From the NCBI GenBank assembly GCA_030144725.1, contig JASKMD010000012.1, positions 6,248,498 to 6,312,497 of the forward strand: 64,000 bases of DNA, in the 5' to 3' direction. This document shows positions 7,800 to 50,549 of the stretch, piece by piece. The DNA is from Haematococcus lacustris (Eukaryota > Chlorophyta > Chlorophyceae > Chlamydomonadales > Haematococcaceae). The position numbers and the translations under genes are program-made. The stretch's first letter is position 1; each line of letters starts with the position of its first letter. The notes below the pieces were generated by a model that was not told where the DNA came from, made no database searches, and saw nothing but the letters and a program-made list of their open reading frames with translations.

Positions 7800-10700
7800 T
7801 CACCACAAGCAGGGCAGGTTGAACAACACATCGCCCGAAGTGTGGCGATCTGAGTTGCCACGAGGCCGTGCTGCCCGGACCGTAAACAGCGCGCCACGCG
7901 TGAAGCACTGGTGACAGGCGACTCTTCCTCCAACTTGCGAAGTTGGATGCGCGGCGGCGGCTTCGTTGTCGACCGCAGGAGGAGGTCGGGCGAAGCCCAG
8001 GAGCCGAGCGGTCACAACCGGCTCAATGCTCATCGCAAACAGCGCAACCTGTCCGGCGGCGGGATGCGGATACTGCAGCAGCACGGCCAGGCGTTCACCA
8101 CTGGCATCCCAACACCAGTCCGCCATGGTCCCGGCGACAGCTTTCCTCCCATTGAGTTTGTATCCCAAGGCAGCTTGCAGCAACGACGGTTTAGCTTCCG
8201 ACGGTGCGGGCAGCTGCGAGTCTGCGCTCCGATGGCCGTCATCGCGGGGCTGGACGTCTTGCAACAGCACGGGCAACAGCTGGGCGACCTGCGAGGCACA
8301 ACACCACCATATCACAACTTCGAGGAAAAAGCGACCTCCACTCACACTACAAGAGCCTCCGGCTTTCGCGCTTACCAGCGAAGGTGGTTCTTCGACCAAG
8401 TGCAGCGCCACTAAGTTGCCTCCAGCTGTGCCCCCGGCGAACGACAAGAGTAACAAGCGTTGTGAGGGCTGTGCCAGGCCCGCTGGGGCTCCCATTGGTG
8501 GTCCCCTGCCCGCCAGAGTGTGTGCAGCCAACGGTTGCAGGGGAGCACTGGCGGGCAGGGGACTGGTGCGGGGACCAGGGGCCCACGCCGCCCCTGTGAC
8601 TGGGCCGCAGCCAGGGGGTGTGCTCCAGGAGGCGGAGGTCCAGGAGCCAGTCTCCAACAGGTAGAACTGGGAGCCTACGCCGGCTGCGGGGCAACGGGGA
8701 CAGGCTGGCTTGCCTTGGTGTGGAAGAGGATCGTGGGGCTGTGTGAGGCTGGGGAGGAGGGGTGGTGGTGAGGTGGGAGAAGGAAGAAGGGGAGTAGGGG
8801 GCGCCAGTGCAAGCGGGAGGGTAGGAGGAGGGAGGATACATTGTTGGGTAGCTGCAGGGGTGAGTGTGTGCGCACAAGGGAGGGAGGGTAGGTGGGGGGC
8901 GAGGTGGGAGGAAGGCGGGGCAGGGGGTGTGCCAAGGGAGAGGGGCAGCAGCGGAGGTATGTGCGCTGAAGGGCCCTCCTGCTGGCTGTCTGGGCAAGGG
9001 ACAGGTGCATGGGGGCTCACACCATGTTGTGCATGTGGCTCCCATGTGCCCTTTAACCTCATCTCTGCCCTGGCCCCGTGGCACCCAGCCGTACCTGCGA
9101 AGAGGTAGGCGCCACAAGGCGACCAGCGTAGCTGCGTGAAGGCAGCCAGGCCCACTCCCACCTGCAGCAGCATTCGCAGGGACACATGGCAAAGGACAGA
9201 AAGGAGGAGGCTACTCCGGCATACATGGCAAAGGGAAAAGGAGGAAGGAGGCTGCTCTTGTTCCCACTGACATGCCATGGAGGAGAGCGGCCTGGGGCGC
9301 GGCCTACTCCCATCATGCCGCATGGCACTAGGCCAGGGCCAGGGCACTGCGGCCGGCATCCTTGTCACCAGCACCTACCACACCAGCTGTGCAACCAACT
9401 GATGGCTGCTGGCATCAGCTGGCTCCATGCTGGGGTGGCCGCACAGGCCAGCGGGTGAGCAGCTGCCTCTAAGCAGCTGCCTCTGTGTCACTTGGTGTGT
9501 GATCCACGCATGACCTGATCATCATGCAAGGCCGTAGCAAGTACATCCTATCACATCCAACATATCTATACATACAGCACACATCTCGTTTCCACTGAAA
9601 ACCTTGGCTTTTAGCAAGGTGTGACACCACCACAGGTGTGACCTTGGCATCACACCTGAGAGCGCTCCCCGCTGGCCACACTCCAGAGTGTGATCCCCGG
9701 TGTGAGAGGACCTGCTGCTGCCAGCAGCCGACCATCAGGGCTCCATGCTAATGCTGTGTATGCTGCAGACTTGCTGGGCCCAGGCAGCCAGGTCACCCAG
9801 GGACCCCCCCTGGGCCCCCCCAGGCCCCGTAGCCCCCCCAGGGGCGGCCGGCTGCTGCCGCCCAGCGTCCATGCCAGCACTCCCCCCTGGGTGCCCACCG
9901 CCAGCATGCGCCCTGACATTGGGCGCCATGCAAGCGACAAGGTGCATGGCTGCAGCCGGTGGGCTAGGCGCATGGAGGGGTTGGTCAGCATGCTTGGGGG
10001 CCAGCGGCCATTGCCTGGGGCTGACCCATGTCCATGTGGGGAAGAGGCCTGCTCCACAGGATCCAGGTCAAAGACCTGCAGCGGCGGTACAGGTCGGTAC
10101 AGAGCTGGGCTGTTAGCCAGCTGGCACCCACACACAAGTTACACAGGGGGTCTTTGAACCAACACTTTCATGTGTCCAGCAAGAGTATGGGTATTGTGCG
10201 GCACATGCCTTTGCATGTCATCCATACTAGGGCAGTGGGCCCGTCCCACATCGCACGGGCAGCAGACAACATATGTATGCGCGGCCTCCGGCCGCACTAC
10301 ATATCTTTAACAACCAGCCGGTCAAGCAAGCCCGCATGCAGCCAAACAAAACTATGCACGTCCAAGTCCACTTGCAATGTGTGTGATAATGATGTTCGCA
10401 TGCTTGCATGATGTCCGCTTTACATCCCTTGGCATCTGGAAAATGTGTGTGAGCCATGATGTCCAGTTACTGTTACTGCTGCTGCTGCCTTTGCTGCTGC
10501 TGCTGCCCCTGCTGCTGCCGCCGCTGCCCCTGCTGCCGCCGCCGGTGCCCCTGCTGCCCTTGCTACCCCCGCCCCTGCTGCCGCCCCCGCCGCTGCTGCC
10601 GCTGCCCCAGCTGCCGCTGCTGCCACTGCCCCTGCTGCCGCTGCCCCTGCTGCTGCTGCCCCTGCTACTGCCGCACCTGCTGCCGCCGCCGCCGCTGCCG

Positions 10701-23799: not shown

Positions 23800-24690
23800 G
23801 TGCCAAGTAGTCAGTCAGCGCTTCTGCACCTCAGCTTTTCGTCGACCTCACCAGCCGCTTGGCCCACGCCTCTAGCCCGCAGCGTGCGGTTCCCGTGGCT
23901 TTCTGCTTTCACCGCACTTTCACTTTGGTTACGGCTGGGGCACAAATCGCGCGATTTGTCGTTAATCGCACGATTTTGGACCAACTTACCGATTCACTAA
24001 CCGCCTGCTCAGGGTGGGCTGCAGCGGCAGGGGATGCTACCGTTAGAATCAGCGTTTCGCGCTCGTTGCAGCCATACCCTCGCAAGCAGCAGCGATGTCT
24101 GGCCATCCGCTTGCATGGCTGCATGGCTGGCTATAAAACGGGAGCGGAGCGGACCAGAGCCTAGCAGGAGCCTTTACAACGTCATGCTTCATTCATTCGA
24201 ACAAGCACTTCACCAGCACATCAATGCAAGCACGATGCCAGTTTCCCTAGTCACCCAACACTCGGCATGTCTAGCCTGTCACTCGGCATTCTTATCATGC
24301 ATGTTGTCTACTATGGAAGCCTACCCAAGCTGGCCCAAGTAATCCTCGACCACAATGGTTGCCTGGCATCATTGTGAGCTTGGATCCATGTGGAGGGGTC
24401 CAATGGCAAGGACCCTCGTTTGATGAAGACCAAGGAGCGTCTCCATGTGTTGCTGACTGATGTAAAAGGGGCTACAACACAAGCAGCATGTGCCAGTGCT
24501 ATTTTGTGCAATGTGCAATGAGTCTAGACATTGTGCAATGAGTCTAGACATAAGACAAGCTGGCTGGTCTGTAGCAACAGAGTTGTGGAACAACACCAAC
24601 CTCAAACTGCAAGACCTCCATCAAATCCACAACAGTGTGGCGACGCTTCGCCCCAGCCTCCAACCATTGTACCACATGGTCCATTATACG
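23800..24690. other. No gene recognised
   Basis: Moderate-complexity sequence with short ORFs only. An 18-bp direct repeat (gtgcaatgagtctagaca) occurs at about 24514 and 24532. Confidence 0.5.
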
Positions 24691-25012
24691 TGGGTGGGTG
24701 GGTGGGTGGGTGGGTGGGTGGGTGGGTGGGTGGGTGGGTGGGTGGGTGGGTGGGTGGGTGGGTGGGTGGGTGGGTGGGTGGGTGGGTGGGTGGGTGGGTG
24801 GGTGGGTGGGTGGGTGGGTGGGTGGGTGGGTGGGTGGGTGGGTGGGTGGGTGGGTGGGTGGGTGGGTGGGTGGGTGGGTGGGTGGGTGGGTGGGTGGGTG
24901 GGTGGGTGGGTGGGTGGGTGGGTGGGTGGGTGGGTGGGTGGGTGGGTGGGTGGGTGGCTGGGTGGGTGGCTGGGTGGGTGGGTGGGTGGCTGGGTTGGTG
25001 GCTTGGTGGATC
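24691..25012. repeat. TGGG tetranucleotide array
   Basis: 24691-24957 is uninterrupted (TGGG)n, about 67 units; interrupted TGGC/TGGT variants run to about 25012. Strong G-quadruplex potential on the plus strand. The 200-aa ORFs across it on both strands are artefacts of a 4-bp period lacking stops. Confidence 0.95.
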
Positions 25013-29390: not shown

Positions 29391-29765
29391 TTGCATGCAG
29401 AAGCAATCCAACAATACATGAAGCAGCTGGATATGGATACTGCACGTATCCCAGACCACCACCACCTCCAAGCTCAAGCGTCAAGTGCAAGACTGTCAAG
29501 CTCAAGCGTCAAGTGCATGAATTTTTCGGTTCACCGAAACCGTGGGCCCGCGGTTAGCTCCTGGTCATCGCTATCATAGCATCCCAGCCAGCCGCAAAAC
29601 CCAGCACCGCATCCATTTGGCGTGGCTGAGGCCAATCAGCAATCAACGGTACGAACGGTACGAACGGTACGAGTACGGGGAGGAATGGTCTCAGTGCCCG
29701 TTAAAAACTACGTAATGGCCAGTGGGTCAGGAGCCCGGCTGTCCCTCGAGATGCTGTTGGTGTTT
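29391..29765. other. No gene recognised; acggtacga triplication
   Basis: Contains a short repeat (aagctcaagcgtcaagtgca twice near 29470-29515) and three acggtacga units at about 29648-29672. No coding sequence recognised. Confidence 0.5.
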
Positions 29766-30394
29766 CAATCAAGTCTCCCGGTAACTCTTCCACCTGTGAG
29801 GTAGAATTACTTCCCGCTGTCAGGTGGAATAGCGCAACCGCCAAACCGCTGCCCGCACAGGTCGTGTTGCTCTATCTAGGGCCATCTGCAGCTCTGCGGA
29901 CAAGACGGCTGCGCAGCAGGGTAAAGAATGCCCATGGTAATCCTCTCCAGTAGCCTCAGCGCCGGCAGCTCCTACCAGCACCAGACAAGGCGCACCAGCT
30001 GCAGTGCACAAATCAGCTGCTGGGCCAACGCTACGTCCGTACCAGCTGCTGCGGATGCTAAGGATGGACTGCGGTCCCAGCGGCCAACGCAGCTCGCGCA
30101 GTAGGAAACGGTCGCTCCCACCCAGGTATGAGCTGCGTTGTGCCCGTTGTTGCTGGTATACCCGCACATGTTGTTGCTTGCTGCTGTTGTTGCACCTCAC
30201 CAGCTCAAGTGCTTAATGCACAGCTATGCGCTGCATTGCTTCACTCCTATGTGTGTCATCGTGCTGGTTGTGGTGCTCGTCCACAGGTATGGCGACACAG
30301 AAGCGTATCACCCGTGAGCAGACATTGCCCCAAAAGGGGCGAAGCCATGTTGGAAGAGTTACAGGTGGAAGAGTTACTGGGACACTTGATTGGC
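29766..30394. mobile_element. Small TIR (MITE-like) element, left copy
   Basis: Begins AATCAAGTCTCCCGGTAACT and ends with the near inverse (AGTTACTGGGACACTTGATT), 629 bp. It contains a 126-codon ORF on the minus strand identical to one on the plus strand at 34443-34823, because a near-identical copy lies inverted at 34291-34877. The ORF matches nothing known to me and has no splice context, so it is not called as a gene. Confidence 0.7.
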
Positions 30395-30439
30395 TGCCCC
30401 GCAGCCAGCCCAGCCTATGCGAAGCCGACCTGGTCAGCA

Positions 30440-31125
30440 ACCCACGACCAGCCAGAGCTCTAGGACCGCCGCATCCCAGTCCCGCCCCACCCCCTCCCAA
30501 CCTTGCGTTGCCCCTTCCCTCCCTGCCCACCCCTGCCCCACCCCCTCCCACCCTGCCCACCCCTCCCCCTGCCCCACCCCCTTCCTGCCTTGCGTTGCCC
30601 CTCCCCTCCCTGCCCAACCCTGCCCCACCCCCTCCCAGCCCTGCCCCACCCCCTCCCAGCCCTGCCCCACCCCCTCCCAGCCCTGCCCCACCCCCTCCCA
30701 TCCTTGCGTTGCCCCTCCCCTCCCTGCCCAACCCTACCCCACCCCCTCCCAACCTTGCGTTGCCCCTCCCCTCCCTGCCCAGCCCTGCCCCACCCCCTCC
30801 CACCCCTGCCCCACCCTATCCCAACCCTGCCCCATCCCAGCCCTGCCCCACCCCATCCCACCCCTGCCCTACCCCCTCCCAACCTTGCGTTGCCCCTCCC
30901 CTCCCTGCCCAGCCGTGCCCCACACCCTGCTAGCCCTGCCCCACCCACTCCCAGCCCTGCCCCACCCTATCCCAGCCCTGCCCCACCCCAGCCCTGCCCT
31001 GCCCTGCCCTGCCCTGCCCTGCCCTGCCCTGCCCAGCCCTGCCTCTGCCCTGCCCTGCCCTGCCCAGCCCTGCCCTGCCCTGCCCTGCCCTGCCCTGCCC
31101 TGCCCTCCCCTGCCCTGCCCTGCCT
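30440..31125. repeat. C-rich minisatellite and CCCTG array
   Basis: 30480-30985 is built of about 21-bp units (ccctgccccaccccctcccag) alternating with a ttgcgttgccccttccctccctg variant; 30985-31125 passes into a CCCTG pentamer array. ORFs in all frames are low complexity. Confidence 0.9.
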
Positions 31126-31129
31126 GTAG

Positions 31130-31755
31130 GTGTGTGGCAGTGCAGGCTGCATGTAGCAGCAGGCTGTTGGTGTGCTACACTGCATGAGCAGCAGCAGTAG
31201 GAGCAGGCTGTAGTGCATGAGCAGCAGTGCAAGGACAGCTGCAGCAGCAGGCTGTGCGCTTGTAACAGTGCAGGTAGCAGCAGGCTGCAGGTGTGCAGGC
31301 TGCAGGTGTGTGCAGGTGTGCAGGCTGCAGGTAGCAGCAGGCTGCAGGTGTGTTGCAGTGCATGAGCAGCAGCAGCAGGCAGCAGTGCATGTGACGAAGT
31401 GCATGAGCAGCAGCAGGCTGTAGCGCATGAGCAGCTGTGCAAGGACAGCAGCAGCGGGAGGCTGTAGGTGTGTGGCAGTGCAGGCTGCAGGTAGCAGCAG
31501 GCTGTAGGTGTGCTGCAGTGCATGAGCAGCAGCAGCAGGCTGCAGTGCATGTGTTTTAGTGCATGAGCAGCAACAGCAGCAGGCTGTAGTGCAACGAGCA
31601 GCAGTGCATGGGCAGCAGCAGCAGCAGGTTGTAGGTGTGTTGCGGTGCATGATTAGCAGCAAGAGCAGCAGGCTGTAGTGCATGAGCAGTGCATGGACAG
31701 CAGCAGCAGGCTGTAGGTGTGTGGCAATGCAGGCTGCAGGTAGCAGCAGTGCCCA
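31130..31755. repeat. CAG-rich complex minisatellite
   Basis: Irregular units of about 40-60 bp built from gtgtggcagtgcaggctgca, ggtagcagcagg and gcatgagcagcagcagcagg. No gene. Confidence 0.85.
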
Positions 31756-31949
31756 TCAGTCAGAGCCCATCAGTGCAGTCAGAGCCCATCTGAGAAGAAT
31801 GTTGCATGGTACAAAAGCTTTCAAGAGGCTGTCCTGAGCGTCCGTTCAGTTCCATGCCACACAACGTGAATTGTAAGCTGTGAATGGTCAAGATGTAATG
31901 AAGAAAACGGTGGTGGTCATTAGCCGTGTATCCTCTTCTCAAACGATTC

Positions 31950-32345
31950 CTACGCCCCTTGTATGGACAACACCACCACGCGGTGATGCGCTAAGGCCGC
32001 AAATGTGGTAGCCACCTGCTACAAACCCCCTTTGCATGTATGCATCACGGTCATGCTTAGCAAGTGCAACCCTGGCAGTGATCCACACCCAATGTGTCAC
32101 AGCTTGCTGGACCACGGATGGTACCTATAGTGGAGGCTCACCACGTCTAGCCACATGCTAGGGTGTGGTGCGCCACATGCCCCTTGTATGGACAACACCA
32201 CCACGCGGTGATGCGCTAATGCTGCAAACGTAGTAGCCACCTGCTACATACCCCCTTTGCATGTATGCATCACGGTCATGCTTAGCAAGTGCAGGCCTGG
32301 CAGTGATCCAGCCACATGCTAGGGTGTGGTGCGCGTTATGCCCCT
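31950..32345. repeat. Direct duplication of about 220 bp, plus third partial copy
   Basis: ccccttgtatggacaacacc starts copies at about 31955 and 32179; a truncated third begins at about 32340. Copies share atgtatgcatcacggtcatg and differ at roughly 5-8 percent of sites. Confidence 0.8.
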
Positions 32346-33965
32346 TGTATGGACAACAACACACAGCTAGGTCCTGGAGACGCATCCATAACAATGTAGT
32401 GTGTGCATGTGGTCGGTGCATGAGGGCGACACTAGGGGTATCAGGCTTGCAGCTGCAAACCATGCTATCACTTGCGTCTCGTGAGTAGTGCATTACATCA
32501 AGGCTTGGTAAGGCACGTTATGCTAGCAAGGGCAAGAACACGAGAACGTTACGAAGATGGGTTATCCGTACAAGCGGGCCATCCATGCACTAACCGGTTG
32601 TCAGCTTTACACAAAACATCCTACCCTCCCACTATTACATTAGAAGACTAGGTATCATTGAGACTTCAAGGCTGTGTGACGTACGCTTGCATCAACATGA
32701 TGTTGCATACTCAACATGACTTTACAGGAGCCAAAGTTACGATGCATGGCAAGTACATGACACACATCACCCCAACCCTTTTCAATGCCATTCACAAAGC
32801 CAAGCAGCCCAATGTCTCGCCATCATCTGTGGGTGCTATTATCCACACAGCAAGGAAGTCAAGAAGCTCAAGACATACATCAGCGCAATTGTTTTCACTT
32901 GTCCCACAGGGGCCAAGGGGCAGGTGGCCAGTAGGGCTGAGCCCGGCTAAGCTAAGCAGAGGCTGTGTTGTGGCAGGTAAGGGGGAATGGTAGAAAGGAA
33001 GGGGAGAGGAGGTGCCCATCAGACCTGCAACCAAGGGGCATGCACATGAGGGAGGAGGTTAGGCTGGGTATTGGGTGTCGGCCACTTGCCGGCAGGCGAT
33101 TAGCTAGAAAGGGACGAATGAGAAGGGGCAGGGAGAAGAGGGCTACTACTAGCTCTAGGCTGCCCGCTGGGGTGGGGGACTTGGTGGTAGTGGTTGGACA
33201 GCAGAGGGAAGGAGCAAGAAGCCAAGGGGCAGGAGGCCAGCTGGGCTGGGCTGGGTGTCAGCCACTTGCCAGCAGGCGGTTAGCCAGGCGGTTACCTAGG
33301 GCAGGCAGGAGAGGAAGAAGAGGAATGAGAATGGGCAGGGAGAAGAGGGACAAGAGGGGGCTTCCTCCTGGCTGCTGGGTAGGGTAGGGAGGGGACCACG
33401 ATGTCCAGGGGGAGGTGAGGGGGAGTGGGGAAGTGGGGGCGTAGGAGACTTGGAGGTGTTGGTGATGGGTAGGAAGGGGGAAGGGGCTATGTAACTGTTA
33501 CACCTGCAGCAAGCAAGGGGCACGCTTGTGATCAACAAACAAGGACATGCATGACTAGAAGTGGGCAGGCTGGCCAAACACCCCGACAACGCCTGGCTGC
33601 CGCTCCTGGCTGTGCTGTGCTGGGAATGCTGTGCTGGGAATAGACACACAGATAGGCACACATGATGGGACACACAGATAGGAACACGCAGGCACAAGCA
33701 CAGGCTAGCACGAGACATGTGTACCTGGACATTTCTAGAAGATTGCCGACATTGCTGACTTGTATCGACATTTCCGCTGCTCCTGCCGCCACTGCCGCCG
33801 CTGCTGCCGCTGTTGCCGCTGTCGACGCTGTCGATGCCTGTTGATGTCTCTGTCGCCTCTGCCACTGCTGCTGCCATCGTCCTACTTGCAATCCTTTGGT
33901 ATGCTGCCCGCTTGCCCCTGTCCCCCACTATCTGCCTAGCCACTCTGTGCTTGCCATCGTTGTTA

Positions 33966-33997
<32 letters not shown>

Positions 33998-34290
33998 GCT
34001 AGCACCGCCTCCCCCACTGATGCCGCCATCACATCGTGCGCCTTGGGCGGGCATCTTCCCAAGCACCAGTAGGCACAAGCATGGACATATTCTTCCCTGT
34101 TGATAAGCAAAGCATGCCTTTCTCTGATACTCTATCCCTGCTGCGTTTGCCACTGCAGCCCTGAGTGTATACTGTTGTCTTGCCCCTCCACCGCCTGCCT
34201 ACCCCTGCTGCACCTGCCCCGGCTGCGCTTCATACCTGCCCCTGCCCCTTGTGGGCCAGCTGTGCTTACTGCATGCTCCTGCTGTGATGC
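32346..34290. other. No gene recognised; local duplications
   Basis: A block around 33064-33155 (gggtgtcggccacttgccggc .. gggcagggagaagaggg) is repeated at 33250-33350. 33960-34005 is a CTG run. The minus-strand ORF across 33.3-34.15 kb is low complexity (poly-Ser) with no domain, and the plus ORF near 32.66-32.99 kb has no recognisable family. Confidence 0.45.
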
Positions 34291-34877
34291 CAACATGGCT
34301 TTGCCCCTTTTGGGGCAATGTCTGCTCACGGGTGGTACGCTTCTGTGTCGCCATACCTGTGGACGAGCACCACAACCAGCACGATGACACACATAGGAGT
34401 GAAGCAATGCAGCGCATAGCTGTGCATTAAGCACTTGAGCTGGTGAGGTGCAACAACAGCAGCAAGCAACAACATGTGCGGGTATACCAGCAACAACGGG
34501 CACAACGCAGCTCATACCTGGGTGGGAGCGACCGTTTCCTACTGCGCGAGCTGCGTTGGCCGCTGGGACCGCAGTCCATCCTTAGCATCCGCAGCAGCTG
34601 GTACGGACGTAGCGTTGGCCCAGCAGCTGATTTGTGCACTGCAGCTGGTGCGCCTTGTCTGGTGCTGGTAGGAGCTGCCGGCGCTGAGGCTACTGGAGAG
34701 GATTACCATGGGCATTCTTTACCCTGCTGCGCAGCCGTCTTGTCCGCAGAGCTGCAGATGGCCCTAGATAGAGCAACACGACCTGTGCGGGCAGCGGTTT
34801 GGCGGTTGCGCTATTCCACCTGACAGCGGGAAGTAATTCTACCTCACAGGTGGAAGAGTTACCGGGAGACTTGATTG
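34291..34877. mobile_element. Small TIR element, inverted right copy
   Basis: Reverse complement of 29766-30351, near-identical across about 586 bp (for example one change in ggtacgcttctgtgtcgcc). The far TIR found at 30372-30394 in the left copy is missing here, so this copy is truncated at its left edge. It ends 210 bp upstream of the first ectodomain exon of the next gene. Confidence 0.75.
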
Positions 34878-35088
34878 GGTGTTTGGTGGGTTGCGCAACG
34901 AATGTTGAGTACAGAACAAAACGAGCTCGCAACAAACTAACATCTAGTACGCGTGATTGGACCCAGGTGCAATCGCAGCTTTTGCGTTGCCCGGGCCCCC
35001 CCCCCCCAGCCCACCTCTGCTAGCCGTGCCTTTGCGACCTGTCCCACCTCGAGCATCAGCGCCGCCCTCACCTGAAACCATCGGCGCT

Positions 35089-36512
35089 ATGACCTCGCTG
35101 CGCATCACCTTCTTCGGCCTAGACCTGTGGTCGCTGTGCACTTGGCAGTCTGATGTCGAAGTGCTGGTGGATAGACAATACTCACGGACAAACATGACCA
35201 TGACCTACCTGACAGCTCCCGGCATGTGCTATTCAGCTCTCAAGGCTTTGAACTACACCACACTACTTAACACCTCCCTTCCCGTTGAGCAGCTCATGCC
35301 CGGCCTTGACTACTTCATGGCGGATGTGAGTCACATGTATGATGAAGATGTGGAGTGTCCTGTAGTATGTGCAACACAACAGGTTAATGATGGTCAGCTG
35401 AGCGCAGGCTGGCACGATGAATCCATACCCATGCTGACTGGAACAGCACAGCACCCTCACCTCTCCACCTTTGCATCTGCCTGTCGCTGCTCTTCCTTGC
35501 AACATGCAGATCACCAGCGTGTTGCGCAACTATTTCACTGACAAAAGTCTGAGTATTGGAGTGTCCGACTACTGTGCCGGCAATCGTACCGAGTCCACCT
35601 TCTATAATTCCACCACGCCAGTATACGGTACCTGGGCCACCCTGCATGTGGTGGTGACAGTATCCTCACCCAGCCCGCAAGGGTAAGCTGCTGTGTACAA
35701 ACCGCACCACCTGCTTAGCCAACATGGGACTCTTTAGCCATCACCGTCTGGTCACATGAGCCTGCCACATAGTAAGCCCTTGGAAGTGCCTGCTGTAGCT
35801 GGCCCACTTAACATCATCTCCTCCAGTGCTGCAGTTGCGGCGCCCCTCACTGCCCCGCAGGCTGACCGTGCCTCCCACAACGATACAGCTGCGCAACCTG
35901 CAACGCAACTGGTGAGCTGGGATGGGTGTACCTCTTGACGCGGCGTCATCGGCAGCAGCAGCGTCAGCAGCAGCGGCAGCAGCAGCAGGCGGCAGCGGCA
36001 GCAGCAGGCGGCAGCAGCGGCAGCGGCAGCAGGAGCGGCAGCAGCAGCGACAGCAGCAGCAGCAGCGGCAGAAGTGGCAGGAGCAGCGGCAGCAGCAGCG
36101 GCAGCGGCAGCCCCATGAGGTCTGAGGCATCCAGGGATCCATGTCCAATGTGACAGCTGAACCTGAACCTGGATATTGTTCAAGGGTCCAGCACTGTCTT
36201 GAGATAGCAAGGTGGTCATGACCACCAGGGCTAAGCAAGCATCCACCACCCTGGCTGCACACAGTTTTGGGCTATGCAAGGCAGCGCTACTACCGCTTTG
36301 CTCGTCATAACTCACAACGTCCCTGCGACTGTTGTGCTTTGTGCCTTGTTGCTTGCATGCCACAGTATCTCAGTTGCTGTATTTGCTGTCCTTCTATTTG
36401 GCTGGACTAAGGCACCGCCCTAGGCTGGACCCTCCCTTTCATCGCCTCCTTACCTGCCCGCAGTCGTGGCGCACTCATCACGGCTGGGCCCGAGTTCTTC
36501 AGACTATACCAG
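35089..36512 (+). CDS. N-glycosylated ectodomain exons, probably 5' part of the SPPPP-Hint gene
   Basis: Four exons join in phase: 35089-35325, 35510-35682, 35827-35911, 36464-36512. The first begins MTSLRITFFGLDLWSL and contains YLTAPGMCYSALKALNYTTL; the second reads IGVSDYCAGNRTESTFYNST. N-x-S/T sites are frequent (NMT, NYT, NTS, NRT, NST, NDT), fitting a secreted or surface protein. The same frame is open upstream of 35089 with a Pro-rich stretch (GPPPPSPPLLAVPL) behind a 13-C run, so the real start may lie further upstream, possibly cut off by the mobile element ending at 34877. No family recognised. The link to the HRGP exon at 38212 is not shown: the last exon ends in phase 1 while 38212 needs phase 2, so at least one exon between is missing. 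Confidence 0.55.
35940..36115. repeat. CAG/GCGGCAGC repeat
   Basis: Imperfect CAG and GGCAGC units in the intron after 35911; open in several frames as poly-Gln, poly-Ser or poly-Ala. Confidence 0.85.
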
Positions 36513-36788
36513 GTGCGCAGCGCCCCTCAACCACTTGCACCACCACCATGTTGCATCCTTAGCACTTCCCTTTTCATCTCCTGGGCAACAAGTCCCCTTG
36601 ATGAACTTAGGGTTGTTAGGTTTGGTTAAGGGAGGCCTGCTAGTAAGACGGGTGTCTTTATAAGAGGGCCTGTGCGTGCTATCTTCCTTGCTGCCTGTCA
36701 AGCCCCTTGCTGTTTGACTCCTGATGGCCGTGGGGCGGCAGGCATGAGCTGTGGCTGGGGTTCATGCTAACAACCTGGCTTATCGTTT

Positions 36789-36921
36789 GCATACCGTATT
36801 GATACGCCTTGTTGGTGATACGCTGATTTGGTGACACAAATCCTATGCTCAAACAATTGGTGATACAATTTGGTGACAAAATGGGTTGGTGAAATCACCA
36901 ACAAGGCATATCAGTACGGTA
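36789..36921. mobile_element. Tiny MITE-like foldback (133 bp)
   Basis: Left arm CATACCGTATTGATACGCCT.. and right arm ..AGGCATATCAGTACGGTA are inverted repeats of about 28 bp with 3-4 mismatches; the centre is AT-rich with gtgataca/ggtgacaa repeats. No gene. Confidence 0.65.
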
Positions 36922-37159
36922 CCATCATCAGCAATCGAAGTGCATGACCGCCTCCTTAGGGCCTTCTAATTTGCATACCATCAGCACACCACAGCCACAA
37001 CCACCTCACCAGCATTATAGGGGTGCATGACCGCCTCCTCAAGGCTGCCTGCCACACTCTCGTCCTTTGATCCATGCACATAGCGTCACCAGACACATAC
37101 AGTACACATCTCCGCTACAACTGAGCAAGGGCTGTGTTATGTAGACGGTCTGAGACCGA

Positions 37160-38115
37160 AGGAAACTGCGTAGTTTCGACCAACACCTAATGCCCCACCC
37201 AAGGCCCGTTCAAAGGTGTGAGATAGATGTCGGCATGAAATGCACACACGCACGCAGCTGCGACACCACCTGGCTTTAAGCTGCTGCAGTTGAGAGCTCG
37301 CATGTTCTAGTACTTTGGCGCTGGCATGCTCCTTGCCCCAATGAGCATAAAGACGCAACATAATGACCAGGCCATCTAGATCCAGTCCCATGACAACCTC
37401 ATCCCCTGTAGTTGTAAATAACCTCACTCCCTGCTGCTGCTGCCCTTGCATGCTCCTGCCCCTGCTGTAGCAGGCTCCTGTGCTCCTGATGCTATTACTG
37501 CACTGCAGATGCCTATCCAGCGCTGCCTAGTGGAGCCACTGCTGCAGCCACTCAGCCCTTCACCCTCACCCGCCCAACCTATGCATGCACCCCCACCACC
37601 AACCCCCACACTGTAAGCGCTGCCACCCACCCTGCCACCCACCCATACTGCGCACCTCACCTCAGCCCTGGCTCCCTCCAAGACCTTGTGCCCGATGTCC
37701 ATGGTCCCTCTTGAGTGTGTTTTGTGTGGGTGTTTGGCACCTGTTTCGTAACCTCTAATGTAAAGTGTAATGTAATGTATGTGACACAAACATCACACCT
37801 GCACTTGTGACAATCAGACGTATATTTGTCACCTGCGTCTCAGCCACAGCTCACTCCTGGACTGGAAGACTAGGCAGCAGCAGCAGCATTGTGTGGGTGG
37901 TGGCAGCAGGTTGTCTGGTGCATGGTGTGGATCATAGCCATGTATAGGTGATAGTGATGGTGGTGATGATGATGATGGTGATGATGGTGATGACCCCATC
38001 GCCCATGATCTCCCTTGCATGTGTGTTGGGTGGGTTTTGGCTACCCATTTTGTGACACATACTGTGAAGTGTTATGTAATGCATGTGACGTACAAGTCAC
38101 ACCTTGCAACCTGTA
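37160..38115. repeat. Transposon terminal fragment, GAT repeats and a 110-bp duplication
   Basis: 37170-37245 (caacacctaatgccccaccc .. gatagatgtcggcatgaaat) matches the terminal sequence of the relic at 14.4 kb. 37935-37993 is a GGTGAT/GAT run. 37717-37830 and 38015-38115 are a diverged duplication (tgtgtgggtgtttgg / taatgtaatg.atgtgac / acacct). If the ectodomain and Hint parts are one gene, this lies in an intron. No exon recognised. Confidence 0.55.
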
Positions 38116-38211
38116 GCATCTGCCCATGACACATGTAGAGCTGTGACGCTCATTTCCTGCTCAATGCCTGACTGCTCCCTGCACCCCATGCTGTGCGCAT
38201 GCTGTGCGCAG

Positions 38212-41200
38212 GCCATCCCCTGGCCCTCCTTTCCCGCCATCACCCTCGCCTGCACCCCCTCCCCCTGCCCCACCCCCTCCAAACCCACCCCCACCCAGCC
38301 CAGCCCCAAGCCCTGCTCCTCCCCCACCTCCCCGTCCTCCTCCCAGCCCCCCTCTACCACCCACCAACAACAACCTGCTGGTTCCACCGGTGCGTTGCCC
38401 ATGATGTGCCTAAGGTCCCATTGCATTGGCTGGCAACCAGCGTGGGCGTTGTGTCAGGGTGTGCTGTGCTTGGCGGCAGACAACAGCGACCCATTCAGTG
38501 TGCTCCTGTGTTCCTGCCTGCAGTCCCCACCTTCACCCTCGCCTCCCCCTCCATCGCCCCACCCACCCTCGCCATCACCCCCCCCACCTTCACCGCCACC
38601 CCCCTCACCTCCCCCTCCGTCACCCCCCCCACCTTCACCACCACCCACCTCACCCTCACCTCCCCCTCCATCACCCCCCCCGCCTTCACCGCCACCCCCC
38701 TCACCTCCCCCTCCATCACCCCCCCCACCTTCACCGCCACCCCCCTCACCCTCACCTCCCCCTCCGTCACCCCCCCCCGCCTTCACCGCCACCCCCCTCA
38801 CCCTCCCCTCCCCCTCCATCCCCCCCCCGGCCTTCACCGCCACCCCCCTCACCCTCACCTCCCCCTCCATCACCCCCCCCCGCCTTCACCGCCACCCCCC
38901 TCACCCTCACCTCCCCCTCCATCACCCCCCCCGCCTTCACCGCCACCCCCCTCACCCTCACCTCCCCCTCTGTCACCCCCCCCCGCCTTCACCGCCACTC
39001 CCCTCACCCTCACCTCCCCCTCTGTCACCCCCCCCCGCCTTCACCGCCACCCCCCTCACCCTCACCTCCCCCTCCATCACCCCCCCCGCCTTCACCGCCA
39101 CCCCCCTCACCCTCACCTCCCCCTCCATCACCCCCCCCACCTTCACCGCCACCCCCCCTCACCCTCACCTCCCCCTCCATCACCCCCCCCCGCCTTCACC
39201 GCCACCCCCCTCACCCTCACCTCCCCCTCTGTCACCCCCCCCGCCTTCACCGCCACCCCCCCTCACCCTCGCCTCCCCCTCCATCACCCCTCTCACCCTC
39301 ACCCTTACCTCCCGCTCCATCACCCCCCCCACCTTCCCCGTCATGCTCTGATCCATATGCCGATCCATATTCCAACCCTCCGTGCGGGGCTTGCCTTCCT
39401 GGCTATCAAAGCGAGAACCTGCTTTGTGTCGTCATCTGCTTTGCTGCATCCACCCGGGTCAAAGTCAAGGCGCCCCAGTTGGGCTCCGCCCCTGGCTCAG
39501 GCTCAGGCACTGGCAAGGCAGTGGAGCAGGCTGCTGCCTCGACACCACGCTGGCTGCACACGGCTTTGGAGGACCTGCGCATTGGTAAGCTCCCGCACCA
39601 TCATGAGCCTCACCCTGCATGCTTTCATCTGCACCCATGCTCCCACATGCTTCCCGTCGACATGCTCCGTCAACATGCTTCCAGGCGGTTGATAAGGAGC
39701 TGTTAAGGAGAGGGGAGGGAACCCCCGATTGATAGCAAGGCTGAATTGACAAAAACACTGATTGATAGTATGCTTTCATCCACACCCATGCTCCCGCATG
39801 CTGCCTGGCTGTGTGGGCCTAGATGTGTCACCATCATGACATAGGCACGCCAGGCTTTAGGGGTCAGGCACAGCCGGCACCACTCATTGCCTGCAAGGCC
39901 AACAGCCTGCACCGGCGCCTGGGCCACACGGTCGAGTGCGAACCTACGTCACACCCCCGGACCTACGTCACACCCCCGTCACACCTAGGTCACAGCCAGT
40001 CTGCCTGCCCTGCCTGGCTTGCCTACCTGCCTGCCTAGACTGTGTACACCACATGCGGGCAACAAGGCAGCCTGTCAACCCAGCCAAACAAGGCCACACG
40101 GGGCCAAGTCAAGTGCACAGCACCCAGGTCCCTGCATGACACCCAGTCTGCCTGCCCTGCATGGCCAGCCTACCTGCCTGATCACCTGCCTGGCTGTGGC
40201 TGGCTGGCTGACAGGCAGCGAGGTGGAGTGCTTGATGCCTGTTGGCAAGGCTGGCGTGGATGCCTCGGGCTCTGCCACCAACACGGCCTACCAGCTGGGC
40301 ACCTGCCACGTCATGTACTATGTAAGCAGCTGGGTTTTCAGTTAGGGCCAGGGTTAGGGTTAGAGAGTGCACCTGGTCATGGCAGCCACCACCAAGTGCT
40401 AAGCAGCATGTGACAACCCCAGGCATGAGTTGGCTGGCTGGCTGGCTTGGCTGGCTGGTCGGTTACCAACTTGTATGCACTCCAGCTTGGACCCCAGGCA
40501 TCTCGCCCATGATCACGCATCCCTGCCGTGCACCCCTCCTTCTGACCAGACTGCTGGCCCTGGTTGCGGTACCGGGGCAGCACACCGGGGTGCATGCATG
40601 CATGAAGGGCAGGCCTGCATGGCTGGCTGCATGGAGTCCTGCCCACTGCCCTGCAGACCCATGCGGTGCGGGCCACCCTGAATCAGACCCGCCTGACCTT
40701 CACCAGGGCCGACGGCAGCACCGGCCAGCTGACCGCCACCCCCAATCACCGCTACCTCCTCCCTGGCCACCCTGTACCCCTGAACCGCCCACCCACCATG
40801 CCCCCAGCTGCTGCTGGCAACCATACATGGGAAGGGGAGCAGGCTGAGGTCCAGGCTGGCCGCCGCTGCCTCTCTGACGTTTCGCATGTGCCAGGTGGCT
40901 GCAAGACCTTTGGCCAGGTGGTGGTGGGCGACCTGGTGCTGCTGAGGGATGAGGGCAGCGGCTGCCTGCACACCAGCACCATCACTGCGGTGGAAACGTG
41001 AGTGGCGCTTGGCTGCGACCCTACTATTCCCTCCAGCTGCTTACACCACAGCACCCCTCACACTGGTCACCCTCACCCTGAGCCATGTGCGCATCTGCAC
41101 AGCCGCCAACACCACATCCAGCCCCCACCTGCAGCAGCCTGCCATAGGGGCCAAAGGTGTGTTTGGCCTCTCCCCTCACCCTGCAGGGTCGAGGAGTATG

Positions 41201-42165
41201 GCAGCTTCACCCCCCTGCTGACAGGCAATGCGCTGCTGTTGCCTGAGGGGGTGGCCACACACACGGTGGCCCGCACAGCCTACCTGATGGGCCTGGCCCC
41301 CTACGAAGCAGCCTTCTCCCAGCGCCTTGCTTCAGATGCGGCACATGCCCAGGAAGCATCGCCCCTGTCTATGCAGCTGCCCACACTGGGCCCGGCAGGC
41401 AGCCAGGCTGTGCCTGTTGTGCGAGCCACCATTGACATGCCAGTGGGAAATTGCAAAGCTCAGCTGACACCTCGGCTTGCTGAGACCTGCGCAGGCCAGG
41501 GACCTAGCCTTGCCCGCCCCTTCCACACTAAACCCTCATGGCGCCTAACCAGCCTGGATTATTCAGCAGCAGGGGCGACATCGTTGCTAGACACAGCCAT
41601 CCATGTGCCGTCCTCGAATCCAGCTGCCCTAAATCAAGCGCAGCCTAAGCCGCAGCTGTCTTGCCCCACCACTGCATCAGCCCTACACCAGCGTGGAGAC
41701 AGTCAGCAGGCAGAAAGCATGGGAGGCATGCCAGTGCCTGCCTCTGACCTGCTGCCCCTGTGGCGCCACTGCTTGGAGCATTGGACTGTGAATGCAAGCC
41801 TCAGCCGCACCTGGCAGCGCTCATCACTGCCCCTGGCCCCGCAGCTCGCCCTGGCCAGCATGGGTCAGCTGCAGCTAGTCAATGAGCCCAGGGCGCCGGA
41901 TGCCTATTTAGACATGGCCAGTGTCCCTGCCCAGCTACAGCCTGCAGTCAGGCAGCTGCTGGGAAGCTGTGTCCAGTTGGGGGCCCGCATGGGGGACTTG
42001 CCGTTCACTTCCCCGGCTGGGCACGTGTTCAAGACGCTGCTGGCCCAGATGGACGAAGAGAGCTTTGCAGCCCTGTCCGCTGTGGCTGTTCAGCAGCAAG
42101 CCAGTAAAAAGGCTCTGTCGCTGTTTGACGTGGTGGCTATGTTCATGCAGAGCATGGCCGACTAA
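38212..42165 (+). CDS. SPPPP-rich (HRGP/pherophorin-like) protein with C-terminal Hint domain
   Basis: Exons: 38212-38389 (PPPPAPPPPNPPPPSP, ending PPTNNNLLVPP), 38524-39594 (SPPPPSPPPP array, Cys-rich spacer PCGACLPGYQ, Hint start), 40215-40321, 40657-40997, 41187-42165. The last four join in phase. Hint features: N-terminal Cys in CFAASTRVKV (about 39439), HTALEDLRIGSEVECL, TXXH motif in LTATPNHRYLLP, VVVGDLVLLRDEGS. Hint domains of hedgehog and inteins self-cleave at that Cys. The tail begins VEEYGSFTPLLTGNALLLPEG and ends FMQSMAD, about 300 aa with no family I know. The SPPPP part is a rod typical of algal wall proteins. It enters in frame but must shift by one base before the Hint frame; the breaks fall at 7-9 C runs (38770-39240), so sequencing error, assembly error or pseudogenisation are all possible. 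Likely secreted; no upstream signal peptide identified. Confidence 0.7.
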
Positions 42166-42914: not shown

Positions 42915-45900
42915 ATGGCTTCTGGCCAATCGGAGCTTAGCCGCCATGAGGCATTGGCAATCCTAGGCGTGCAGGTTTGCCCCGTGGCGCCGCGTAGTGG
43001 CAGAGCATGCCGCTGTCGCATCAATACAAGCAGCCCACTGCTGTAAACTACTGCAGGAAGGGGTGAGCACCGCGGATCTCCGTCGTGCCTTCAAAGCGCG
43101 CGCTCTGCAGAGGTGCCCTTCCCGTCGCATACTCTTACTCCGTGCAGCTCATCAGCTATGCAGCGTTGGACCTCCCTGCGTGCAGTCACCCAGACAAGAC
43201 CAGGCAGCATGTCTCCGCCTCAGACGCAGCCTTCAAGCGCCTGGTGTCAGCCTACCAGTGCCTCACACAGCCCGCTGCAGCCAAGACATGGTGAGGAAAG
43301 GTTGGCCTCCTGGTGCAGAGCATCAGCAGCCATAGCGGGCGTTGGAGAAGTATAACAGGGAACGCAACAGATGCTTGACTGGACTGGGAATTGTATCAGA
43401 GAAAGCAACAGCTGGCTCAGGGCATATGCAAATGCCTTTGTAGTGGTTCTACTATGGCTGCTGCTGCCGGTATAGCCAGCCTGATAAGTCCGCAGGAACA
43501 AAGAAAGCAAGCTGTGCTGTGTGCTGGTGGGCAGCCAATCTCGCCAGTGCTGCTGCTGCTGCTGCACTCAGGGCTGAGCTGGACATGTCAGACATCCTCA
43601 GCGACGCATTCTTTGCTGAGGCCTTTGCCCAGGAGCTGCCGGCCTTTGAGATGATGTACATGTGTGTGTGGGGCACGGAGGAGGAGAGGAGCAGGGGCTG
43701 ACGGGGGCAGCAGGCAAGGCCAGGGACAGATCTACAGGCCAGGGCTAGAGGCCAGGGCTAGAGGCGACGTGGGAGGACCGGGAAGCCTGGGGGGCCTTTG
43801 GGGTCAGGGCTGCTGCTTGAGGGGCGGTGCCAGAGGTGCCCCTCTTGGGTGTGGGTGTGGTTCTTGCATGGCTCTGGCCCTGACCAGGTTCTGCATGTGC
43901 TGAGTACTACCAAACAGCAGCATAGCGTCAGAACGGGATATCTATGGGTTTGGGGGAGGGAGGTGCACCAGAGCTGGTGAATGCTGCAGGCTGGTCAGCC
44001 CTGTTGCCCATCACCCTACCCCACCTTAACTCACCCCCATTCATCAGAGCCCACCAACCCCTATCCCACCTACACCTACCCTACACACCCCACCCCATAT
44101 GCCTGTCACTTAACCCTTACCCCACTTAAACCATGCTATGATATACTGAGCTGTGATTTGTGCATAACGGGCAAAACGAAAAGACAAACACTGCTACACA
44201 CCCCACCCCATATGCCTGTCACTTGCCTGGGCAGTCGCCTGATCTGGCTGGTCTGCCACCTGCGCTGCAGCCATACCCATATGCCCTCTGCGCCTGGCCA
44301 GGTGGCCATGCCTTCCCCCACACCACCTCCTCACCACCACCACACCAGCTCGGCAGTCGCCTGTCCTGCAGCTGCTCTAAAGGCTGACATGCAGCCGCCC
44401 GACAGCACCCACCCTGACACAGGGCAGCATCAGCTTCCATGCTCAGAGGACACAGCAGGTCAACAAGTATTGCCACTGCATGGGAGTGAGCAGTTAAAAC
44501 AGAAGGAGGAGGAGGGGCACTCATACACAGAGCAGCAGCAGGGGCAGCAGCAGGGGCAGCAGCAGCAGGGGCAGCCGGGCATGGTGAGCAGTGTGTCACA
44601 GGCAGTGCAGGGGCCCATGCCTCGCATCTGGGCGGATGAGTTGCCGAGTCAGACGGGGCTGAGGGATGCAACATGGCGCAGGATCCATGAAGCCGTGCAG
44701 CGCAAAGCGGAGAAAGCCAGAGGTGCGGGGGTAAAGGTCAGGGGCAGAGCAAAGAGTGAGATGTGTCTCCTAGTCGACCTTAGTGTCACGAGCTGGACAC
44801 CACCAGGGTGTGCGCCGGGTCAGCCCTGGGTCAGCGCTGGACAGGCCTCTGCTGTGCTTTTGTGCTACAAGCTGGCAACCACATCCCTTCAATGAAGGTA
44901 GTAACTCGGCAACTTCTTCCCACTTTTACTGACTCGAACACCCACCACCTGCTTCCCCTGGCTCCCCTGCCCCTGCTACCTTCACGACTGGCCTCTCGCT
45001 TGCACCCACTCACAGTCCCCCTCCCCCTCACTACCTTCCTCTGTGCTGCATATGACCTCTTCCCTCCACCCGCCAGCCCACCCTCCCCTTCTCTCCCTCC
45101 CTATGCAGCCTTCACCCTTGACTCATGCCCCCTCCCCTCCCCTGTCCTGCCCCATGCAGCACGAGCAGCCGGCCAGGTGCCCAGCAAGCCTCATCGCCGT
45201 TTCCTACACCGGCAAGCCCAGCGCTGGTCCCTGCTGTGGGCCCTCCTGGCTGACCTGCTGCGCCCAGACCCCGCCGCCTTTGTGTTGGTGGACGAACAGG
45301 AGCGCATCGTGTGCATCGCACCCTCCACCTCCTCAGGCCCCTCTCGGGCCTTGGTGCCCTTTGAGCAGCCTGGCCGCCAGCAGCGGCTGCAAGCCTCGCT
45401 CCAGGGTGAGGGGCTGCAGCTTGCTGCACAGCCTGCAGCCTGTGCAGGTGGAGGGGCAGGGATGGTGTGCCTAGACTCTGTAGCACAGGGTCTGACGCTC
45501 ACAAGGCCAGGGAAGCTGGGGCCGCAGGCTGGGCTGTTGAATGCAATGCCTGAACCAGATGCTGGTATCGGCAGCCAAGGTTGTGGAGCAGCAGCAGCAG
45601 CAGCAGTGCTTGCAGCAGCGGGGCCAGGGGCCCCAGCAGCTGTCAGGGAGCGCGCAACAGTTGGGGCAGGGGTAGGGACAGCAGCAGCAAAAGAGGAGCC
45701 CACTACAGCTGGGCCAGGAGAGGGGGAGGTCACCTCATCAGCAGAATCAACAGTCGATGCAGCGCCAGAAGCGAAGGCACCAGCTGCGGGCCAGTCGGGT
45801 GCCAGCTCCTCTGTTCACGTCATTCCTGTGACCACCTTCATCGCTCTGCCGCGGCATAAGCAGCGGCACGCCCTGGCCGCACGGCCTGCCTCGGGCCAGC

Positions 45901-48970: not shown

Positions 48971-50549
48971 TTACGATGATCCTTGCAACGCTTGCCGTCG
49001 GGGCAGTTCTGGCAGCACCGGTGCAGCAGTACAACACCATGCGGCTGCGCTCAGAACCTGGGGGCCGCGGGCGATACTTGCGCGGACTACGTCGCCAGGT
49101 TGCAAGCGGCCAACTCCCTCCGGCGTGCCTGCGACGCGCAGCATCGACACCAGCACTGCGCCAACGAGCCGCAGCCTGGTGGCCGTGCTGACGTCTCCTC
49201 CCACCACCCCGGACGACCCCAGACACCCAGGAATCAGGTACGAACATGCTTATCCTTGACAAACAGACAAACGAGTCCAGACAAATCAGCCCAACAAAAC
49301 TTATTCAACACGGAATAACATGCTGGGCTGTGGGTAATCTCACTCTGCTAGACAGACAAATCAGGCTGGAGGCTCGTAGGTATACCCTAAGCTGACGGTT
49401 ACGGGAGTGGTAAGGTTGAGGGTCACGGCAAGGTTCACGGCTCATGATTGTTGGTTATGGCCATGTCTGCACTCACCAGTAAGGATAAGGTCCCCTGCCT
49501 CTATGGGGAAACGCGACTTCAGGTACTGCACTAGCTCCTCCACCTGCACACACCAGGTGGTGACCTGACTCCGCCTGCTGTGCGGCTGCGCCTGCTGAGC
49601 ATTGCCTAACAGGCTGAGCTCGGACCTGGTGTTGCTGCTGGGCTTGGGAGCAGCGGTGCTGGATGCCGGCAGGTCTTGAGAGCAGCAGAAGCAATGGCAG
49701 CAAGATGGTTTGTGTACTAGGTGTATGCCAGGTCCAGGCAGGAGGACATAGGTTGCCACCAAACATCCAGTCAAACCAATTGGAGCTGACAACTTGCCTT
49801 GAAGATCATGAGGCTTGTGTTGCTACTCTGCCGCATACTGCCATTTACCTGAATACATCATCATGGTCCACACGACGCTTAGTCAGAGCTGGGGGAGGGG
49901 GAGGGGGAGGGGGAGGGGGAGGGGGAGGGGGAGGGGGAGGGGGAGGGGGAGGGGGAGGGGGAGGGGGAGGGGGAGGGGGAGGGGGAGGGGGAGGGGGAGG
50001 GGGAGGGGGAGGGGGAGGGGGAGGGGGAGGGGGAGGGGGAGGGGGAGGGGGAGGGGGAGGGGGAGGGGGAGGGGGAGGGGGAGGGGGAGGGGGAGGGGGA
50101 GGGGGAGGGGGAGGGGGAGGGGGAGGGGGAGGGGGAGGGGGAGGGGGAGGGCACCTGCAATTGTATGTGCAGGCCCCGCAGGTCAGCCTCAGACTCCACA
50201 GGGAAGGTCGCACCAATGGGGGTGGCGGCAGGGAAGCTCTTGCCCAGGGCCCAGGGGTGCCCCTTGCTGGCAGCTCTTCGCTACGGTCAGGCGCACTGCT
50301 ACCAGTGTGTGGGGCTTGGTGGTGCGGCAGTGGGACTGGTCAAGGGATGAAGAATGGTAGTCAAGCCGCAGGGTAGCTATGGAGCACGCAACAGGGGTCA
50401 CATAGCCAGGAGGTAAGTCAAGATTACAAGGCAGCTATGTAGGAGGCAACAGTGGACACATAACCAGCAGGGCAGAGGGGTCAGGATAAGGATGAAGGAC
50501 GGACAGGAACATGCAGCAACAACAGTACTGGCACCACGCTTGGCCAGGT

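Follow-up and report, generated by a model that had tools for sequence, protein, structure and literature searches.

A candidate self-processing Hint domain on hydroxyproline-rod proteins of the green alga Haematococcus lacustris

In animal Hedgehog, a Hint-type domain cuts its own chain and takes up cholesterol. Could a cell-wall rod protein of a green alga carry a domain of the same kind? The question is raised by a locus of Haematococcus lacustris (assembly GCA_030144725.1, contig JASKMD010000012.1), which we analysed within a stretch of 64,000 nt (the window, in whose positions all coordinates are given). A sequence-only reading had proposed here an SPPPP protein fused to a Hedgehog- or intein-like Hint domain. 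We conclude that the locus is one copy of an H. lacustris family of predicted secreted hydroxyproline-rod precursors, in which a Hedgehog-like Hint domain is followed by a C-terminal region with predicted helices, and we give a probability of about 0.6 to the reading that active members cut their own chain at the start of this domain.

Gene model and the link between rod and Hint domain

The end of the rod, a Cys-rich spacer and the first Cys of the Hint domain (Cys1, 39437-39439, in the motif CFAAST) all lie inside one exon and one frame, in the open reading frame (ORF) 38414-39706. Since the last SPPPP units share this exon and frame with Cys1, the rod and the Hint domain belong to one gene, and the rod and Hint exons did not fall into different genes, the outcome that the sequence-only reading had named as contrary to it. 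The SPPPP rod is present as proposed (38212-38389 and 38524-39340), as is the TPNH histidine motif at 40738-40749, and the exons between 39.4 and 42.2 kb join in phase at GT-AG sites.

With the annotated full-length relative P0013 (1063 aa) as a guide, eleven exons were revealed between 29715 and 42165. All relatives used here, including P0013 and P0012, are gene predictions, with no complementary DNAs among them. P0013 has the order signal peptide, ectodomain, rod, spacer, Hint domain and C-terminal region, as does P0012, whose rod is very short; this order supports the link to the exons at 35-36.5 kb, which had been put forward as not proven. The proposed N-glycosylated ectodomain has five N-x-S/T sequons within residues 1-225 of the joined N-terminal part, but its supposed start at an ATG at 35089 had to be given up, because the exon begins at 34967 and ends at 35325 (GAT/GTGAGT). 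The signal-peptide exon (29715-29765) is a part absent from the earlier proposal; the hydrophobic stretch MLLVFGAIAGFAL of P0013 speaks for a signal peptide. Between the window protein and P0013, identity is 95.8% over 238 residues of the N-terminal part and 91.6% over 524 residues of the C-terminal part. With P0014, a protein of another assembly with a HaLaN locus name, the window protein shares 99.6% of 229 aligned residues, and because of this identity P0014 and the window locus are probably the same gene copy. The features of the locus are as follows.

29715-29765, + strand: exon 1, start codon and signal peptide (MASGSGARLSLEMLLVF); its 17 residues match P0002 at 100%, and the start of P0013 is identical
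29766-34877, no strand assigned: inserted element of 5112 bp with inverted terminal repeats of ~550 bp; GGTGTTT flanks both sides
34967-35325, + strand: exon 2, end of the signal peptide, Pro-rich lead and first part of the ectodomain; P0013-guided
35510-35682, + strand: exon 3, ectodomain
35861-35911, + strand: exon 4, ectodomain
36464-36512, + strand: exon 5, ectodomain (RGALITAGPEFFRLYQ)
37509-37612, + strand: exon 6, end of the ectodomain and start of the rod; donor CACACT/GTAAGC read off the sequence
38212-38389, + strand: exon 7, Pro-rich rod
38524-39343, + strand: exon 8, first part, SPPPP rod with 52-bp tandem array and a net +1 frame change
39344-39436, + strand: exon 8, Cys-rich spacer (CSDPYADPYSNPPCGACLPGYQSENLLC); comparable spacers in P0008, P0012 and P0013
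39437-39584, + strand: exon 8, start of the Hint domain, Cys1 at 39437-39439
40215-40321, + strand: exon 9, Hint domain
40657-40997, + strand: exon 10, Hint domain; His at the Asp46 place at 40660-40662, TPNH at 40738-40749
41187-41265, + strand: exon 11, end of the Hint domain (YGSFTPLLTGNALLLPEGVATHT)
41266-42165, + strand: exon 11, C-terminal region of ~300 residues with low-confidence predicted helices; stop at 42163-42165

Evidence for a Hedgehog-like Hint domain

When the family profile was compared with the PDB, Hedgehog autoprocessing chains took ranks 1-3 (E 0.023, weak), followed by seven intein sequences. A Foldseek search with a low-confidence model, folded after an alignment version with the Hint start misplaced in several rows had been dropped, returned the Hint fold in all of rows 1-23, and the first row was 6tyy, 'Hedgehog autoprocessing mutant D46H' (E 2.5e-3, probability 1.00). 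The score of the whole family profile against the Hedgehog Hint sequence was reached by none of 5000 shuffles of that sequence, and therefore the likeness to a Hint domain is more than chance. An earlier fold model (P0013, 21 rows) did not resolve the Hint domain and gave no Foldseek match at E ≤0.001, and its fold searches in effect tested the ectodomain alone; P0013, P0012 and P0008 have no match in NCBIfam.

Several results weigh against this assignment. The match to Pfam PF01079 scores 14.7 bits against a curated cut-off of 29.7 and stays under the cut-off in every member scanned, with 11 of 21 at E ≤1 and a best value of 0.0068. The proposed Hint match is thus borne out by the family profile and the fold but not at the Pfam cut-off, and the structure prediction, whose top Foldseek rows agree with the proposal, comes from a poor model of the Hint domain (mean predicted local distance difference test, pLDDT, 40.5). 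The single Hint sequence of the window, searched with phmmer against the PDB, found no Hint chain; its only matches, two in number, were to capsids (E 0.18 and 0.28). The profile is weak in its N-terminal half, where Cys1 and the TxxH motif lie: 60 of 5000 shuffles match the score of this half against the Hedgehog N-terminal half, and 185 of 5000 reach its score against the whole Hedgehog Hint sequence. The probabilities from hhalign are 31.9 and 22.7, with an alignment of the last 50 columns only. In addition, nine of the 14 gene models are without the Cys1 stretch, six of them beginning downstream of Cys1 or its exon and three (P0001, P0007 and P0010) running past it, and the residue preceding Cys1 is variable (Ile, Ser or Asp). 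In Hedgehog, Gly precedes Cys1.

Cys1 is present in the window, P0002, P0008, P0011, P0012 and P0013, being kept in all five gene models that include its stretch. The TxxH motif is found in the window and in all 14 of P0001-P0014; the fragment models P0027-P0029 are without it. In Hedgehog, Asp46 is the sterol-activating residue and acts as a base for the sterol hydroxyl. Algal VMYYTH and Hedgehog VILFMD align without gaps, with His opposite Asp46, and the alignment to 6tyy (model residues 86-206 on 305-382) places His85 of P0011 at most one residue from Asp46, which is residue 303 counting from Cys258. Among the 13 relatives readable by script, 11 have His at this place, P0004 has Tyr, and P0006 has Gln in a model that looks mispredicted right there. 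These alignments suggest that a His occupies the Asp46 place of Hedgehog. According to the accessible part of a review (PMC8529194), Drosophila Hedgehog with an engineered D46H substitution accepts a broader range of sterols. The motif J Cys (Hedgehog Cys143) is found only in P0012, with Thr, Met or other residues in the remaining relatives, and PMC2362128 describes its loss in the Hogs of mosses and red algae as well. P0012, which is also the most divergent copy, shows an HNT triplet shortly after its motif-J-type Cys. Behind the Hint domain, where a Hog domain has a helix-loop-helix sterol recognition region, helices are predicted with a pLDDT mostly <50. Because His rather than Asp appears at the Asp46 place, the domain is, as judged from its residues, a Hog-like Hint domain and not a Hedgehog Hog domain.

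The same residues bear on whether the Hint fold is still active. It might no longer be self-processing and might serve as a structural or binding domain, the ectodomain, rod, Hint domain and C-terminal region staying one chain. The variable residue before Cys1, the Tyr of P0004 and a catalytic N-terminal half that is less Hedgehog-like than the other half would all fit an inactive domain, but Cys1 is kept wherever a gene model covers it, and TxxH is kept even in P0012, which is ~42% identical to the window protein; we regard such a loss of activity as rather unlikely. The intein-like option of the sequence-only reading, in which the Hint domain would be excised and the rod joined to the C-terminal region, fared worse. 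The intein C-terminal junction (Asn followed by Cys, Ser or Thr) is absent at the Hint end in the window and in P0013 (EGVATHTVARTAY), and Hedgehog leads both the Foldseek and the profile ranks. Because no Asn plus nucleophile is seen closing the Hint domain, splicing is highly improbable.

Proposed processing and the state of the window's copy

From the part order, the exon phases, the Hint-like profile and fold match and the catalytic motifs, which this analysis shows, we infer how active members with the Hedgehog-like Hint domain might be processed. In the secretory pathway, Cys1 would attack the preceding peptide bond, with the TxxH Thr and His assisting, and the product would be a thioester joining the Cys-rich end of the rod to the Hint domain. 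The thioester would then be broken by a nucleophile that the C-terminal region perhaps holds and that the His at the Asp46 place perhaps activates. This would release the ectodomain and rod with a new C-terminus, which would be an ester if the nucleophile were a sterol or a wall hydroxyl and a plain carboxylate if it were water. On the evidence of these sequences and models, we think it somewhat probable that active family members self-cleave at Cys1. The self-cleaving Hint domain on a wall protein, as first proposed, thus has its Cys1, TxxH and fold in place, and the cleavage itself is what these features suggest.

It is quite doubtful that cleavage leaves an algal-sterol or wall-hydroxyl ester on the new C-terminus of the rod, with His46 replacing Asp as the general base, as in the engineered D46H Hedgehog. 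If it does, a self-processing domain would anchor rods to the plasma membrane or ligate them into the wall. An analogy weighing against a wall role comes from a red alga, in which, according to the part of PMC13353863 at hand, eight of ten Hog genes are mainly haploid-expressed; one is expressed mainly in walled diploid cells.

Because the window's own copy has an interrupted signal-peptide exon and, as assembled, an out-of-frame rod, we propose this mechanism for the family and not for that copy. The inserted element separates codon 17 (ending at 29765) from the original exon 1 donor (G/GTGGGT at 34885/34886). Its inverted ends have no mismatches in the first 500 positions and one in the first 550, and a 7-bp flanking duplication borders it. 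No transposase was recognised by eye in its ORF list, and no family search was made on the element. Because of the near-perfect inverted ends, the flanking duplication and the lack of a transposase recognised by eye, it may be a non-autonomous transposon of recent origin.

A 52-bp tandem array (38572-39290) makes up most of the rod, and in it C8/C9 tracts shift the SPPPP pattern through all three frames. No frame is closed by a stop inside the array, and a frameshift within it would alter the rod and not end it. Read in the frame of exons 7 and 8, the sequence meets a stop at 39349; relative to this frame, Hint is read at net +1. Since poly-C invites errors and a comparable out-of-frame stretch occurs in the rod annotated for P0013, a poly-C sequencing error and true decay look the same in the rod of the window.

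Because the element splits the signal-peptide exon and the rod changes frame, the window copy is doubtful and may be disabled. We give an even chance to its being a decaying or disrupted paralogue or allele that yields no complete protein, regardless of how the family behaves. The insertion with near-identical inverted repeats in exon 1, the net +1 change with the stop in the upstream frame, and the matching P0014, which is annotated to begin only at MPVGKAG, point to disruption, but the Hint and C-terminal exons are stop-free with intact splice sites, the poly-C tracts of 8-9 are prone to sequencing error and the P0013 rod is likewise out of frame, and the element might be spliced out or heterozygous. 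H. lacustris is described as diploid in the accessible part of PMC7617258.

Elsewhere in the window, long arrays of simple G-rich repeats are found at 24690-25009 (GTGGGTGG, 320 bp) and at 49891-50151 (perfect GGGGGA, 261 bp). Downstream of the gene, a + strand ORF at 43067-43294 has an HPDK motif (CSHPDKTRQHVSASDAAFKRLVSAYQCL) and is J-domain-like by eye. The window has no match in Rfam at gathering scores.

The family, known systems and biological meaning

The C-terminal region is conserved across the Hint-bearing copies. In P0022, P0024 and P0026, the ectodomain and a proline rod are present, and the Hint domain and its C-terminal region are replaced by another C-terminal part, which is the pattern of a modular wall-protein family, as far as gene predictions tell. 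Relatives were found in H. lacustris only (12, 26 and 11 proteins in three overlapping protein-search lists), among the best 7996-7997 candidates by word sharing that were scored, a procedure that misses distant relatives and does not imply absence elsewhere. In viral contigs, none of 68 pattern-matching stretches codes for a relative, and the region of exons 2-3 has no match in plasmid records.

The best match by profile and Foldseek is the Hedgehog Hog domain (Hint plus sterol recognition region; PDB 1at0 and 6tyy). The algal family shares with it Cys1-Phe, TxxH, the end motif PLL...GxxLVxEG, a secreted N-terminal cargo and a region after the Hint domain that is mostly helical (predicted here). 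It differs in having His for Asp46, Cys143 in P0012 only, long Hint inserts and a C-terminal region of ~300 residues compared to ~100 in Hedgehog, and it has a rod of the hydroxyproline-rich glycoprotein (HRGP) type as cargo in place of the Hedgehog signalling domain. Inteins share the Hint fold, Cys1 and TxxH, whereas the algal family has no visible C-terminal Asn-nucleophile junction and has a co-inherited C-terminal region after the Hint domain. Pherophorins and other volvocalean HRGPs share a secreted globular domain and an SPPPP rod, and the algal family differs from pherophorins in its Hint domain after the rod. Pherophorin was rejected as a candidate for the ectodomain or the rod-flanking domains, no pherophorin family being among the Pfam matches.

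We also compared the algal family with Hoglet of choanoflagellates, which has the same layout of a new N-terminal domain, a low-complexity stretch and a Hog domain, but has a Thr-rich stretch for the SPPPP rod and another N-terminal domain. Hoglet is named in PMC2362128, whose accessible sections describe non-Hedgehog Hogs in many protists, red algae and mosses, likewise with a signal peptide, a lineage-specific N-terminal domain and a Hog-like C-terminus and many also with the motif J Cys replaced; neither an SPPPP rod nor a chlorophyte member is described in these sections. In the available parts of PMC13353863 and PMC5405695, the Hog and Kelch-Hog genes of Cyanidiophyceae are, like the H. 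lacustris family, multi-copy algal Hogs, but they belong to red algae, have Kelch or no known N-terminal domain and show mainly haploid expression. Hint genes are expanded in some diatoms, according to excerpts of PMC12803021.

In the accessible portions of the literature on Hint, Hog or hedgehog in green algae, Volvox, Haematococcus and pherophorins, no HRGP-Hint fusion was found described, nor any green-algal hydroxyproline rod that carries a Hog-like domain with a predicted His in place of Asp46. The parts of the literature at hand describe Hog-like proteins from numerous non-animal eukaryotes, with a function that is stated to be unknown or is merely suggested; matrix building by lipid modification is named as a possible function in the accessible text of PMC13353863. 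A recognisable wall-type rod as cargo makes this suggestion directly testable, in an alga that is grown commercially. If active, the domain would be the natural equivalent of the engineered D46H substitution and would offer a self-acting route to release, anchor or ligate hydroxyproline rods. By analogy with Hedgehog, the wall rods of this alga may be trimmed, or tagged with a lipid, in the same manner.
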